Positions 529 through 7,055 of a stretch of DNA of 7,055 nt are shown here, one piece after another; position 1 is the stretch's first letter, and each line of letters opens with the position of its first letter. The notes below the pieces were generated by a model. It was not told the origin of the DNA and ran no database searches. It was given only the letters and a program-made list of their open reading frames with translations. Made by a program: the position numbers and the translations under genes. Source of the stretch: JAUWCW01 sp030609125 [NCBI: Candidatus Rokuibacteriota bacterium] (GTDB taxonomy: Bacteria > JAUVQV01); assembly GCA_030609125.1 (NCBI GenBank), contig JAUWCW010000099.1, positions 1-7,055 on the forward strand, written 5' to 3'.

Positions 529-1304
529 GTGCCGAGCGTAAGGCTTTTCCCTTGTCCCGGGAACGGTTCGACGCCGTTCTCTTCGACATGGACGGCGTGC
601 TGACGGCGACGGCGAAGGTTCACGCCGCCTCCTGGAAGGAGATGTTCGACGAATATCTGCGGACACGGTCCGAAAAGACCGGCGAGCCCTTCGCCCCCTT
701 CGACATCGGCGCCGATTACGTCCACTACGTCGACGGGAAGCTCCGCAACGACGGCGTGCAGAGCTTTCTCCTCTCCCGGGGCATCGACCTCCCCTGGGGC
801 GATCCCTCCGACCCCCCGGAGCGGGAAACGGTCTGCGGGCTCGGAAGCCGCAAGAACGAGCTCGTCGGTGCGGCGATCGAGTCCGGGGGGGTCGAGGTCT
901 TCGAGGGGGCGGTGGCACTGGTGAAGCGGCTCCGGCGGATACCCGTGAAGACCGCCGTCGTCTCGGCGAGCAGGAACTGCCGTACCATCCTTCGGGCAGC
1001 CGGCATCGAGGAGCTCTTCGACGCGCGCGTCGACGGCGTGGTGGCGGGGGAAATGGACCTCGCCGGCAAGCCCGCTCCCGACACCTTCCTCAAGGCGGCG
1101 GAGCTTCTCGGCGTCGAGCCGGCCCGGGCCGTCGTCGTCGAGGATGCCGTCTCGGGGGTGCAGGCGGGACGGGACGGAGGGTTCGGTCTCGTCATCGGCG
1201 TGGACCACAAGGGGGATCCCGGTGTCCTTACCGAACACGGCGCCGACATCGTGGTGGAGGACCTGGGAGAACTGATAGGCAAGGGCGAGGAAGAGGAATC
1301 ATGA
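525..1304 (+). CDS. pgmB: Beta-phosphoglucomutase-family HAD hydrolase
   Basis: This is a 259-residue cytosolic HAD enzyme predicted to convert beta-glucose-1-phosphate to glucose-6-phosphate through a phospho-aspartate intermediate. Visible motifs are FDMDGVLT with nucleophile D21 and acid/base D23; T29 and H33 at the start of the cap domain, at the spacing of the cap histidine in Lactococcus beta-phosphoglucomutase; VVSASR with S147 and S149; the motif III lysine K182 in AGKPAPD; and the Mg-binding pair E206-D207 in VVVEDAVSG. The cap stretch with YVHYVDGK and NDGVQSFL resembles the longer (about 250 aa) type often encoded beside GH65 phosphorylases. The start at 525 is supported by GGAGGT at 508-513 and by the ATGA overlap with ackA; the 3' end overlaps the GH65 gene by another ATGA. 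The adjoining GH65 gene supports the substrate assignment, but mutase rather than phosphatase activity is an inference. The C-terminal tail is acidic (EEEES). Confidence 0.88.
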   Translation: MSAERKAFPLSRERFDAVLFDMDGVLTATAKVHAASWKEMFDEYLRTRSEKTGEPFAPFDIGADYVHYVDGKLRNDGVQSFLLSRGIDLPWGDPSDPPERETVCGLGSRKNELVGAAIESGGVEVFEGAVALVKRLRRIPVKTAVVSASRNCRTILRAAGIEELFDARVDGVVAGEMDLAGKPAPDTFLKAAELLGVEPARAVVVEDAVSGVQAGRDGGFGLVIGVDHKGDPGVLTEHGADIVVEDLGELIGKGEEEES

Positions 1305-2354
1305 TCGAGAAGGAACTGCTCATTCCTCCGGAACACATCTACCCCAACGACGAGTGGCGCCTCGTCGAGAAGCGGTACGCGCCGGAGTTTCTCGCCCAGA
1401 ACGAGACGATCTTCGCCCTCGGCAACGGTTACCTCGGGATGCGGGGGGCCTTCGAGGAAGGACTGCCGGTCTTTCAGAGCGGCACCTTCAACAACACCTT
1501 CACCAACCTCATGGCCCGGGAGAACCTCTGGTACGCCGTGGCGACGGTGGAGAGGATGAAGGGGGCCGACCCGGAGCGCTACGCGGCCCTGGTGCACGAC
1601 ACGAAGCTCCGTGAGGAGGAGATCGGGGAGTGGAAGAGAGCCGCCGACTCCATGTACATTCCCTTCGACGAAGGGAAGGGTATCCATCCCCAGGACGACG
1701 ACTTCCTCAACAAGGAGATCTGGGACTTCGAAAACACGCCCGCCGACCGGTACCCGCTCCTCCTCCACTACCACCCCCTCGTCATCTACCGCTACCAGGT
1801 CATCAAGCAGGCCGACGTGGCCATGGCGATGTTTCTCCTCGGCCACGAGTTCACCGAGGAGCAGAAGAGAGCGAATTTCGACTTCTACGACCCCCTGACG
1901 ACGGGCGACTCCTCCCTCTCCGCCTGCATCGATAGCATCCTCGCCTGGGAGCTCGGCTACGAGGAGAAGGCGCTCCGCTACCTGCGCTACGCCATCCTCA
2001 TGGACCTGGCCGACATCGGCGGCAACGTCAAGGACGGTGTTCACATCGCCTCCATGGGCGGCACCTGGATGGCCGTCGTCTACGGCATCGCCGGTCTGCG
2101 GGACTGGGGCGGACGAATTTCCTTCCGTCCCCGGCTGCCGGAGAAGACCTGCCTGCTGAACTTTCACCTCACCGTCAGGGGCCGGCTCCTTGAAGTGGAC
2201 ATCAGGAAGGAAGGGGTCACCTACGCCCTCAAGGAGGGAGAGGACCTGGTGATCGAGCACTGCGGCGAGGAACTCACCCTCCGTCCCGGCGAAGCGGTCA
2301 GTCGGGACCTGCAGAAACCCATCGAAGGAGCGGCCGGGGAGGGCCCGAAGAACA

Positions 2355-2365
<11 letters not shown>
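1301..2365 (+). CDS. GH65 disaccharide phosphorylase with large in-frame internal deletion
   Basis: Intact GH65 enzymes (maltose, trehalose or kojibiose phosphorylases) are about 750-800 residues and release beta-glucose-1-phosphate. This ORF has only 354. Residues 1 to about 62 match the family N terminus (ETIFALGNGYLGMRGAFEEG, then FQSGTF). Residue 64 onward matches the late catalytic barrel: NNTFTNLMARENL, then KQADVAMAMFLLGHEF (169-184), SLSACI, VHIASMGGTW (247-256), RLP and the C-terminal beta domain. Everything between is missing: most of the N-terminal beta-sandwich domain, the linker and the first half of the barrel, including the GPDEY-type motif with the general-acid Glu that normally lies just upstream of the NNxFTN stretch. 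KQ and H248 of the phosphate/sugar pocket remain. Catalysis is therefore unlikely. The frame is open and the gene still overlaps its neighbours (4 bp with pgmB, 11 bp with edd). It could be a recent deletion, a repurposed remnant or an assembly error. Start ATG 1301 has GAGGAAGAGG upstream. Confidence 0.85.
1483..1506 (+). repeat. Imperfect 12-bp tandem repeat at the GH65 deletion junction
   Basis: CACCTTCAACAA (1483-1494) is followed directly by CACCTTCACCAA (1495-1506), 11 of 12 bases identical. It encodes the TFNNTFTN stretch, exactly where N-terminal GH65 sequence changes to late-barrel sequence. The repeat is seen directly. A role for short homology in forming the deletion is an inference. 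Confidence 0.6.
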
Positions 2366-4220
<1,855 letters not shown>

Positions 4221-4230
4221 ATACCCGGCG

Positions 4231-4239
4231 GGAGGGAGG
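4231..4239 (+). promoter_or_regulatory. Ribosome binding site fixing the eda start
   Basis: GGAGGGAGG lies 6 bases before ATG 4246. It is a strong Shine-Dalgarno match and favours that start over the in-frame ATG at 4174, which lies inside edd and has no comparable site. Confidence 0.7.
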
Positions 4240-4245
4240 CGCACC

Positions 4246-4893
4246 ATGAGGGCAGGGAAAGAGTGGAAGGTGGAACCGGCGGAGGTGCTCGGCGCCGGGC
4301 CGGTGGTGCCGGTGATCGTTATTCACGACCCCGATCACGCCGTGCCCCTCGCCGGGGCTCTTCTCGCCGGCGGCGTCAAGGTGCTGGAAGTCACCTTGCG
4401 CACACCGGTGGCCGTCGAATCCATCAGGCGAATAGCACAGGAGGTCCCCGCGGCGATGGTGGGCGCCGGCACGGTGGTGACGCCGGCCGATCTTGCGGCT
4501 GTCGAGGCTGCCGGCGCGCGCTTCGCCATCAGCCCAGGGCTCACCCCGGGGCTTCTCGAGGCCGCCGACGGTGGTGGCATAGCCCTCATCCCCGGCATCG
4601 CCACCGCCTCGGAGCTGATGACCGGGATGGAGCACGGATACGACCACTTGAAGTTCTTCCCCGCCGAAGCCGCCGGAGGAGTGAAGGCCCTCAAGGGGAT
4701 CAGCGGGCCCTTCCCGCAGGTCACTTTCTGCCCCACCGGCGGCATAAGCCCCGTCAACTATCGCGACTACCTTGCTCTCGCCAACGTCGCCTGCGTCGGC
4801 GGCTCCTGGCTCGTCCCCGCCGAGGCGATGGCGACGGGAAACTGGCGGCGCATCACCGACCTGGCGGCGGAAGCGGTGGCCGGCGCGAAATGA
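4246..4893 (+). CDS. eda: KDPG aldolase (2-keto-3-deoxy-6-phosphogluconate aldolase)
   Basis: Eda is a class I (Schiff-base) aldolase that cleaves KDPG to pyruvate and glyceraldehyde-3-phosphate, completing the Entner-Doudoroff pathway. From ATG 4246 the product is 215 residues, matching the usual 205-215. Catalytic residues are visible at family spacing: E48 and R52 in VLEVTLRT, the GAGTV loop, the Schiff-base lysine K136 in HLKFFPAE, and phosphate-binding glycines in CPTGGIS and CVGGSW. Each is three residues later than in E. coli Eda (E45, R49, K133). The frame extends upstream to ATG 4174, which would add 24 residues unlike the family and overlap edd by 47 bp, so I reject that start. The gap to edd is 25 bp, which suggests co-transcription. 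Some family members also cleave 4-hydroxy-2-oxoglutarate; the edd neighbour favours KDPG. Confidence 0.95.
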
Positions 4894-4950
4894 AGACCAC
4901 AAAACTGAAAAAAGGGTTGGACATACACGCGGGCAGGTCATGGGGGCACC
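4894..4950 (+). other. Short A-rich eda-zwf spacer
   Basis: This 57-bp gap has an A-rich first third (ACAAAACTGAAAAAAGGG, 4899-4916) that contrasts with the GC-rich genes on both sides. I see no hairpin strong enough for a terminator, so zwf is probably on the same transcript. The only Shine-Dalgarno-like element before zwf is a GGGGG run at 4942-4946, four bases from the ATG, which is weak and close. A four-codon ORF (ATG 4940, stop TGA 4952-4954) ends across the zwf start codon; its function, if any, is unknown. Confidence 0.4.
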
Positions 4951-6492
4951 ATGAAAAGAAATAGCGGCATCGAGAGCAGAAGGAAGAACAGGCCGTCAAA
5001 AGCGCCTCCGCCCCCCCCCTGCGTCATGGTCATCTTCGGCGGCGGGGGTGACCTCGTTAAGCGCAAGCTCGTGCCGGCCCTCTACTACCTCTCCCTCTCG
5101 GGGCTCCTGCCGGAGCGCTTCGCCGTAGTCGGCGTCGGCGGCGACGATCACACCAGCGAGAGCTACCGCGAGTATCTCGACTCCGAGATCGGGAACATGG
5201 TGAGCGGCGAACTGTCGCAGGAGGTCTGGAAGAATATCGAGAGGCGCATACACTTCCTCAGGGCGGACTTCAGGGATCAGGAGTCCTACGGCGACCTCAG
5301 GGCCCTGATCGAGAAGGTCGACGAACAGGAGGGGACGGGGGGCAACGTCCTCTTCTACCTGGCCACGCCGCCGGCCTTCTTCGCCGAGATCCCGGCGCGT
5401 CTCGCCGAAGAGGGGCTCACCGCAGAGGAGGGCGGGCGGTGGCGCCGCGTCATCGTCGAGAAGCCCTTCGGAAGGGACCTGCAGTCGGCGCGCGACCTCA
5501 ACGGCGCTCTCCTGAAGTCCCTCGGGGAGGAGCAGATCTACCGTATCGACCACTACCTCGGCAAGGAGACAGTCCAGAATATCGTCGCCTACCGCTTCGC
5601 CAACAGCACCACGGAGCCGCTCTGGAACCGCCAATATATCGACCACGTCCAGATCACCGTCGCTGAGTCCCTTGGCGTGGAGGGGCGCGCCGGCTACTAC
5701 GACCAGGCGGGCGCCCTGAGGGACATGATCTCAAACCACCTCCTCGTCCTCCTCGGTATTGTGGCCATGGAGCCGCCCACCTCTCTCGACGCCGACGCCG
5801 TCCGCCTCGAGGGCGTCCGGCTTATGAGGTCCATCAAGCCCATCGCCGATGAGGAGGTGCCGGCGGTGGCGGTGAGAGGGCAGTACGGGGAGGGGAAGGG
5901 GGCCGACGGAGCAATCCTCCCCGCCTACCGGGACGAGCCCGGTGTCGCTCCCGGGTCGGTGACGGAGACCTACGCTGCCGTCAGGCTCATGATAGACAAC
6001 TGGCGCTGGACAGGAGTCCCTTTCACCCTCCGCACCGGGAAGCGCCTGGCCCGGCGCCGCACCGAAATCGCCGTGGTGTACAAGCGGCCTCCCCTGGCTA
6101 TGTTCAGAGGATCGACGGTGGAGACGCTGCCGCCCAACGTGCTCGTCCTGCGCATCCAGCCCGACGAGGGGATCGAGTTCGGCTTCGGCGCCAAGGTTCC
6201 GGGGGCGCACATGGGGCTCGACAGTGTGGAGATGGATTTCTGCTACGAGGATTACTTCGGCGACGCCCCGAGCACCGGCTACGAGACGCTGATCTACGAA
6301 TGCATGTGCGGCGACGCCACCCTCTTTCGCCAGAGTGTCGGTGTCGAGGGCGGTTGGAAGGTGGTGCAGCCCATACTCGACGCCTGGAGTGCCGAACCGC
6401 CGAAGGACTTCCCGAACTACGCCGCTGGCTCCGACGGCCCCGCCGCCGCCGCGCTGCTCGCCGGAGATGGCCGGAGGTGGAGACCCATCTGA
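4951..6492 (+). CDS. zwf: Glucose-6-phosphate 1-dehydrogenase
   Basis: Zwf oxidises glucose-6-phosphate to 6-phosphogluconolactone with NAD(P)+ and feeds the Entner-Doudoroff and oxidative pentose phosphate routes. The 513 residues match the usual 480-515. The N-terminal Rossmann domain begins at VIFGGGGDLVKRKL (27-40). Also visible are YLATPP, EKPFG with K171, the signature RIDHYLGKE (198-206) with K205, and catalytic H263 in ISNHLL followed by VAMEPP. The C-terminal domain has FTLRTGKRL and ends in an AGSDGP and GRRW stretch typical of the family. The coenzyme loop reads GGGGDL where most relatives have GASGDL or GATGDL. The first 24 residues are basic, then five prolines partly encoded by a run of nine C (5011-5019). 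Start ATG 4951 is the first possible start after an in-frame stop at 4906; the internal ATG at 5026 would begin too close to the Rossmann strand. No 6-phosphogluconolactonase gene adjoins it. Confidence 0.96.
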   Translation: MKRNSGIESRRKNRPSKAPPPPPCVMVIFGGGGDLVKRKLVPALYYLSLSGLLPERFAVVGVGGDDHTSESYREYLDSEIGNMVSGELSQEVWKNIERRIHFLRADFRDQESYGDLRALIEKVDEQEGTGGNVLFYLATPPAFFAEIPARLAEEGLTAEEGGRWRRVIVEKPFGRDLQSARDLNGALLKSLGEEQIYRIDHYLGKETVQNIVAYRFANSTTEPLWNRQYIDHVQITVAESLGVEGRAGYYDQAGALRDMISNHLLVLLGIVAMEPPTSLDADAVRLEGVRLMRSIKPIADEEVPAVAVRGQYGEGKGADGAILPAYRDEPGVAPGSVTETYAAVRLMIDNWRWTGVPFTLRTGKRLARRRTEIAVVYKRPPLAMFRGSTVETLPPNVLVLRIQPDEGIEFGFGAKVPGAHMGLDSVEMDFCYEDYFGDAPSTGYETLIYECMCGDATLFRQSVGVEGGWKVVQPILDAWSAEPPKDFPNYAAGSDGPAAAALLAGDGRRWRPI

Positions 6493-6495
6493 TTG

Positions 6496-6517
6496 ACCGG
6501 CCCGGTTTTCGTCTTTT
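6496..6517 (+). terminator. Weak candidate intrinsic terminator after zwf
   Basis: Four bases after the zwf stop, ACCG (6496-6499), loop GCC and CGGT (6503-6506) form a four-pair stem with a three-base loop. It is followed by a T-rich stretch to 6517 (TTTTCGTCTTTT, interrupted by CG and C). The stem is short and the T tract broken, so termination may be weak or the match may be chance. Confidence 0.3.
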
Positions 6518-6533
6518 CCACCGTTCCTCCGGA

Positions 6534-6560
6534 TTGCCAGAGCCCGGTGCGTGTGATAAT
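6534..6560 (+). promoter_or_regulatory. Possible sigma70-type promoter, extended -10
   Basis: TTGCCA (6534-6539) and GATAAT (6555-6560) are separated by 15 bases, and TG at 6552-6553 sits at the extended -10 position. The spacer is shorter than the ideal 17, and the start point would leave a leader of about 245 nt before ATG 6813. A weaker alternative is TTGTCA at 6607-6612 with TATGGG at 6630-6635. Confidence 0.25.
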
Positions 6561-6812
6561 TACGTCATATAGGCACGGTTAGTAGGCGTTTTCGGGGAGG
6601 GTCGGGTTGTCATGCGAAAGGGAAATGTCTATGGGCTTCACATACCACTAAAGTGTAATAGCCTTCTTCCGCCTCGGGCACTACTTTACTGTTAAAGGCT
6701 CGTGTTGGATGTGCGTGCCTGGTGCGCATGACGGGTCCGTATTTCGCTGGTTTTGCGTATACCTCAGGTGGCGCGAATCAGGCAACTTTCACCGAATGAG
6801 AAGGTGGGGGCC

Positions 6813-7055
6813 ATGCTCAACGAACTCGTCGAATACACTCAGGTTCTCGACATCGTGGGCGACGTCTGCCGCGTGAGAGCCCGGGGCATCGGCCTCGGCG
6901 ACCTCGCCGTGGTGGAGAACATCGACGGCGAGACATCCACGGCCAGGGTGATCGCCCTGCGCGAGGACATCGTGAGCCTCCAGGTCTTCGCCGGCGCGAA
7001 GGGCCTCTCCACCGACGCCCGGGTGCGCTTTCTCCCCCACGGCCTCCAGGCCCTC
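6813..7055 (+). CDS. atpB: V/A-type ATP synthase subunit B, N-terminal part (3' end outside window)
   Basis: The 81 visible residues match the N-terminal beta-barrel and following stretch of the non-catalytic B subunit of the V/A-type ATPase, a membrane-associated rotary complex that couples ATP to H+ or Na+ movement. The pattern is EYTQVLDIVGDVCRVRA, then LGDLAVVEN, ARVIAL and VSLQVFAGAKGLSTDARVRFL, the last close to the B-subunit LQVFxGxxGLST signature. The full protein is normally about 430-470 residues, so the nucleotide-site region lies outside the window. ATG 6813 is chosen because AAGGTGGGGG (6801-6810) sits just upstream; GTG 6804 and GTG 6768 are in-frame alternatives and the frame is open back to 6732. 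No A-subunit gene lies directly upstream, which is unusual if the gene belongs to a standard A-B-D operon. The family call is good; ion specificity cannot be judged. Confidence 0.82.
   Translation, partial: MLNELVEYTQVLDIVGDVCRVRARGIGLGDLAVVENIDGETSTARVIALREDIVSLQVFAGAKGLSTDARVRFLPHGLQAL

Follow-up and report, generated by a model that had tools for sequence, protein, structure and literature searches.

GH65 phosphorylases use a conserved glutamate as the general acid and bind phosphate through two consecutive serines, a histidine and a lysine; in FjGH65A, the general acid is Glu472 and the equivalent of the phosphate-site lysine is Met330 (PMC8626586). The inverting members of the family produce β-Glc1P, according to a review (PMC8950772).

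Here, we describe a locus in which a GH65 phosphorylase gene, lying between pgmB and edd, appears in the contig with an internal in-frame deletion and encodes only 354 amino acids. A real, recent, in-frame deletion of ~1.35 kb has probably inactivated this GH65 α-glucoside phosphorylase. Below, we lay out the evidence for this reading and weigh it against its main rival, an artefact of assembly or library, and against the retention of the short product as a non-catalytic protein.

Results

The short GH65 gene is part of a predicted sugar-to-acetate gene cluster

The window, that is the whole stretch of 7055 bases analyzed here, is contig C350 of the draft genome G000 (2.32 Mb; completeness 92.4%, contamination 2.15%). 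On its forward strand follow one another the 3' part of ackA (acetate kinase; 1–528), pgmB (a β-phosphoglucomutase family HAD enzyme; 525–1304), the GH65 ORF (1301–2365, with an ATG start), edd (phosphogluconate dehydratase; 2355–4220), eda (KDPG aldolase; 4246–4893), zwf (glucose-6-phosphate dehydrogenase; 4951–6492) and the start of an ATP-synthase-type gene. PgmB passes the subfamily model TIGR02009 (166.4 bits, cut-off 153.35) and stays below the bPGM equivalog model TIGR01990 (98.5 against a cut-off of 189.4). Edd (TIGR01196, 871.1 bits, cut-off 708.25) and Zwf (TIGR00871, 584.2 bits, cut-off 400.6) score above their cut-offs, as does Eda (TIGR01182, 260.5 bits, cut-off 156.05), whose score is that of the longer ORF 4174–4893, the start at 4246 having been picked by inspection. 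Between zwf and the ATP-synthase-type ORF, which starts at 6813, lies a gap of ~320 bases (6493–6812), and the G+C content of 6493–7055 (0.599) is below that of the preceding genes.

The first 141 bases of the window are identical to the end of a second contig, C69, which carries the 5' part of ackA and pta (NCBIfam phosphate acetyltransferase, 909 bits, cut-off 418). Given this overlap and the genes on C69, the cluster reads pta-ackA-pgmB-GH65-edd-eda-zwf.

The genomes that we searched include only two from the phylum of G000. We saw no edd match in the flanks of 36 GH65 loci (34 distinct genes; L004–L019 at E 1e-5 and L110–L129 at E 1e-4). Among eight GH65-carrying genomes, six matched the edd query at 29–35% identity, and thus none of the eight has a close edd. 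In G001, which belongs to the same order as G000, pgmB had no match at E 0.001 and edd only a 35% match, which is probably dihydroxy-acid dehydratase.

We also considered, and rejected, the possibility that C350 is a contaminating contig. Its tetranucleotide correlation with the bin is 0.963, compared to a median of 0.972 and a minimum of 0.935 for 34 contigs of 5–9.5 kb, five of which score lower. Its G+C content (0.663) is somewhat high for the bin (mean 0.638, standard deviation 0.015). The composition of C350 fits the bin, a fit that falls short of proof.

Two ends of a GH65 gene are joined in frame

Pfam profiles and BLAST comparison with relatives divide the ORF into two parts. The 5' part (1301–1489, residues 1–63) encodes the start of the N-terminal β-sandwich: it covers positions 2–47 of the 233 in the GH65N profile (PF03636) and is 62.7% identical to L136 over 67 amino acids. 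The 3' part (1490–2362) covers positions 179–371 of the 371 in GH65m (PF03632), that is an incomplete (α/α)6-barrel, followed by the C-terminal β-sheet domain GH65C (PF03633), complete from 1 to 62. The junction lies at 1489|1490, give or take 1–2 bases, where GGC ACC TTC meets AAC AAC ACC, with 63 codons before and 291 after it. The initial annotation, made from the letters alone, had joined the first ~62 residues to the last ~290, and these counts bear it out. It was likewise correct in the sequence that the reading frame, the 4-bp overlap with the end of pgmB (1304) and the 11-bp overlap with the start of edd (2355) are all kept. The neighbors of the ORF have complete open frames.

Two full-length relatives match all three Pfam profiles nearly end to end. 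Aligned with such relatives, as the initial annotation had proposed, the ORF falls into two blocks: query residues ~1–67 (1–116 in L005 and L006) match the N-terminal region of the relative, and the query from residue 58–71 onward matches the relative from residue 485 at the earliest, the exception being L004, where a contig end cuts the gene. Between the blocks, 455, 455, 449 and 451 amino acids are absent relative to L005, L006, L007 and L008, which are near and complete, and 433–455 across ten relatives. A large central loss had thus been recognized rightly, and its size is at or slightly above the ~400–450 residues first estimated. The missing segment of the relatives contains GPDEY just ahead of the 3' breakpoint; the ORF restarts a few residues past this motif, whose loss, together with the general-acid glutamate, had also been called correctly.

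Scanning genome contigs, we found 16 GH65 loci, 15 of which lie in stop-to-stop ORFs of 757–1055 amino acids. The remaining locus, L004, runs off a contig end; its 5' half (L136) is found on a second contig of its genome, G041 (L004 at 1–60, L136 at 3836–5108), and jointly the two halves cover the core. One of these G041 contigs has a C-rich start, and its first residues look garbled. Identity of the query to the two G041 fragments is alike for the N-part (62.7%, the N-part being judged by BLAST identities) and the C-part (60.9%), and the nearest relatives overall are ~61–64% identical over the C-part. Two Verrucomicrobia MAGs have a single ORF that contains both pgmB-like and GH65 sequence (L018, 2724–5891, 1055 amino acids; L019, 2886–5837, 983 amino acids), an apparent PgmB-GH65 fusion.

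The short form was seen in this genome only

We sampled genomes from two phyla: the GH65 query matched 32 of 377 in one and 20 of 392 in the other, 52 of 769 together. Among the matches listed, none begins ahead of query residue 42 and continues past residue 116, as would be expected of a gene with this short form; the two parts are hit at separate places, or only the C-part is. Some weak matches fall in short open frames, for example of 245 amino acids in G379 and 228 in G522, but these begin at query residues 111 and 162, past the junction, and are thus no instance of it. The short form is likewise absent from the 16 named loci. A conserved short form in relatives, which would have pointed to an old separate family, was therefore seen neither in these loci nor among the listed matches from the 769 genomes. 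Forty other genomes searched as relatives gave no GH65 match, and the open PMC literature, as judged by titles and the starts of abstracts, yielded no description of a GH65 gene deleted in this way.

Within the readable part of G000, we found no second GH65 gene, a single GH65m match being present. A query made from the missing core, which found matches in six of six genomes known to carry GH65, found none in G000; six of the 81 contigs examined, all below 3 kb, read as N, so that a short contig carrying the core would have gone unseen. A 44-base similarity between contig C137 and the window was put down to chance, since it did not come up when G000 was searched by protein and by family.

Catalytic residues and predicted product

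The general-acid glutamate lies in PDEY, which we take to be the motif that holds it, in agreement with the placement of E487 of 1H54 in our alignment; the ORF does not contain it. Two elements of the phosphate site are retained. S204 and S205 are invariant, as is H248, which we presume to be the phosphate-binding histidine, equating it with His671 of the maltose phosphorylase 1H54 by an alignment through L006. The phosphate-site lysine can be placed by position only. In FjGH65A, its equivalent Met330 is ~140 residues ahead of Glu472 (PMC8626586), which puts it within the missing segment. As read from its sequence, the product is without most of the N-domain, the linker, the first half of the barrel, the general acid and, by position, the phosphate-site lysine. 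With these core parts and residues gone, the 354-amino-acid product would be expected to have no phosphorylase activity.

An AlphaFold2 model built from 15 sequences (mean pLDDT 70.5, pTM 0.67) shows helices and the C-terminal β domain, preceded by residues 1–63, which are mostly below pLDDT 50. Much of the C-part has 10-residue means of 77–95, with dips near residues 131–170 and 241–250. The best PDB matches of the model are GH65 phosphorylases (1h54, E 5e-18), at an rmsd of 6–8 Å; thus, the half barrel is poorly fixed in the model.

Could the fragment have been kept for another purpose? A maintained, catalytically dead protein, for example one that binds phosphate or sugar and works together with PgmB, would account for the phosphate-site serines and H248 still being there, for the well-predicted stretches of the C-part with their resemblance to GH65 structures, and for the conserved columns and unaccelerated rate described below. 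Set against this, both breakpoints fall inside domains, residues 1–63 and the two dips are of low predicted confidence, a half barrel would presumably leave a large core exposed, and the same short form does not recur among the matches listed in the two phylum samples. We therefore regard such a protein as very improbable, and the binding role that the initial annotation had entertained for the remnant finds little support. To the more specific proposal, that a maintained, non-catalytic GH65 derivative with a partial phosphate site has a partner or sensor function in relation to PgmB and the ED cluster, we would give scarcely any credence.

No sign of decay was seen in the remnant

Over residues 68–330, compared with 14 relatives, the ORF departs from none of the 33 invariant columns and none of the 50 that are conserved at ≥85%. 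A count over the N-part (10 of 14) was set aside because the alignment had misplaced residues 54–62 at the junction. The same test on other, intact genes gave values from 39 of 46 to 43 of 43 columns kept, so its power is limited. No change in 50 conserved sites sets a 95% upper bound of 5.8% neutral change per site. We also built a midpoint-rooted tree from 30 C-parts, of which 28 are distinct (two pairs are duplicates); seven of the 20 loci L110–L129 were dropped as weaker matches. The query has a root-to-tip distance of 0.837, which ties for the second-lowest value, and an ordinary terminal branch (0.356); it neighbors L004 with weak support (0.318). The GC3 of the ORF (0.879) lies within the 0.83–0.91 of the neighboring genes.

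Three readings agree with this: a young deletion, a fragment under constraint, or an artefactual junction. Because the nearest relatives are only ~61–64% identical over the C-part, recency is bounded rather than dated.

Assembly artefact or real deletion

The main rival to the deletion is an artefact of assembly or library, under which the gene is full-length in the cells and the contig follows a chimeric or minority path over two breakpoints. Its simplest form, a collapse between repeats, was among the suggestions of the initial annotation. Overlaps of exactly 141 bp join two pairs of contigs of G000, and no other end overlap of 25–300 bases occurs in 75 of 81 contigs and the window. This suggests a de Bruijn graph with k=141; MEGAHIT runs up to this value. 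Within 150 nucleotides of the breakpoints, the longest exact word common to both regions is 7–10 bp in ten relatives, and we rejected k-mer collapse between repeats on this ground. By eye, the G041 gene fragments have a common 8-bp word, and breakpoint microhomology, judged on the relatives' sequences, would amount to 1–2 bp (C or CA). An assembler of this type ends contigs where the graph branches, as apparently happened at bases 1–141; at 1490 the contig is unbroken. Taken together, the overlaps suggesting k=141, the short common words and the unbroken contig make repeat collapse unlikely.

Other routes to an artefact are less constrained by these data. De Bruijn assemblers bring contigs up from smaller k and prune low-coverage branches, which leaves room for a chimeric read or for a minority status of the full-length allele. 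The G000 draft is split into 376 contigs, and a lone core contig of 1.4–1.6 kb would be smaller than the smallest contig that we examined (2571 bases) and might be absent from the bin, or be hidden as were the six contigs that read as N. The splitting of the same gene over two contig ends in G041, the tree neighbor of the query, shows that it can be hard to assemble; the junction is carried by one genome only, and an artefact, too, would yield a fragment free of decay. On the other side, common words of at most 10 bp (8 bp in G041) are far below the usual k-mer sizes, the junction is passed unbroken while contigs elsewhere in the assembly stop at 141-bp shared nodes, and an artefact would have produced an exact in-frame join with a chance of only one in three. 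On balance, we consider an artefact possible but rather unlikely.

Discussion

The evidence is best accounted for by a deletion that is real and recent: relatives are full-length, the short form does not appear in the samples, and no sign of decay was seen in the remnant. The initial annotation had proposed a recent loss of function, which we retain as the best fit. The presence of the deletion in the cells, its recency and the loss of activity are what we infer from these observations.

Before the deletion, the GH65 phosphorylase would have been the entry enzyme of the cluster, converting an α-glucobiose (such as maltose, trehalose or kojibiose) to β-glucose-1-phosphate. PgmB would then have formed G6P, from which the Entner-Doudoroff route would have led on, with Zwf forming 6-phosphogluconate, Edd KDPG, Eda pyruvate and GAP, and Pta and AckA finally acetate. 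The proposed deletion broke the gene 63 codons into its N-terminal region and joined it again a few residues past the general-acid glutamate. As no other GH65 was found in the readable bin, PgmB may have been left without its usual substrate source. The deletion being in frame, translation would still run into edd, whose expression would presumably be preserved.

This raises the question of whether selection chose the allele. As the initial annotation suggested, an out-of-frame loss could be polar on the overlapping edd, and an in-frame deletion might on that account have been favored over other null alleles, an idea that refines the deletion reading rather than excluding it. The 11-bp overlap speaks for it, as do the other two frames, which stop 22 or 40 codons past the junction, 795 or 740 bases before edd. 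These stops make the idea reasonable, yet a single event with a prior of one in three, that being the share of random deletions that stay in frame, cannot test it. In addition, a GGGAGGG seen by eye a few bases 5' of the edd ATG suggests that dependence on coupling may be partial. We therefore rate selection against polarity as improbable.

If the deletion is real, the locus gives a clear view of a pathway that is losing its first enzyme with the remainder of the operon untouched, in a lineage whose phylum is represented by only two of the genomes searched. It also calls for caution in annotation: the ORF passes the Pfam GH65 cut-offs and could be miscalled an active phosphorylase, although it reaches only 249.4 bits against a cut-off of 838 with the full-length NCBIfam model. 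Most likely, we are looking at an ordinary kind of gene loss, with neither a new mechanism nor a novel type of protein.

Among known systems, the locus is closest to the inverting α-glucoside phosphorylases of GH65, such as the maltose phosphorylase 1H54 and the kojibiose phosphorylase 3WIQ. It resembles them in its N-terminal 67 residues and in residues 64–331, in the C-terminal β domain, and in the phosphate-site serine pair and H248; pgmB adjoins it, as it does in L005–L007 and L136. Unlike 1H54 and 3WIQ, it is without ~450 central residues, the first barrel half, the general acid and, by position, the phosphate-site lysine. We found no difference, in turn, from pseudogenes known in general to arise by internal in-frame deletion. 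Like them, the ORF has intact flanks, an open frame and an expected lack of activity, it stands beside full-length homologues (15 of 16 loci, with L004 cut by a contig end), and its short form was seen neither in those 16 loci nor among the matches listed from the searched samples of 769 genomes from two phyla.
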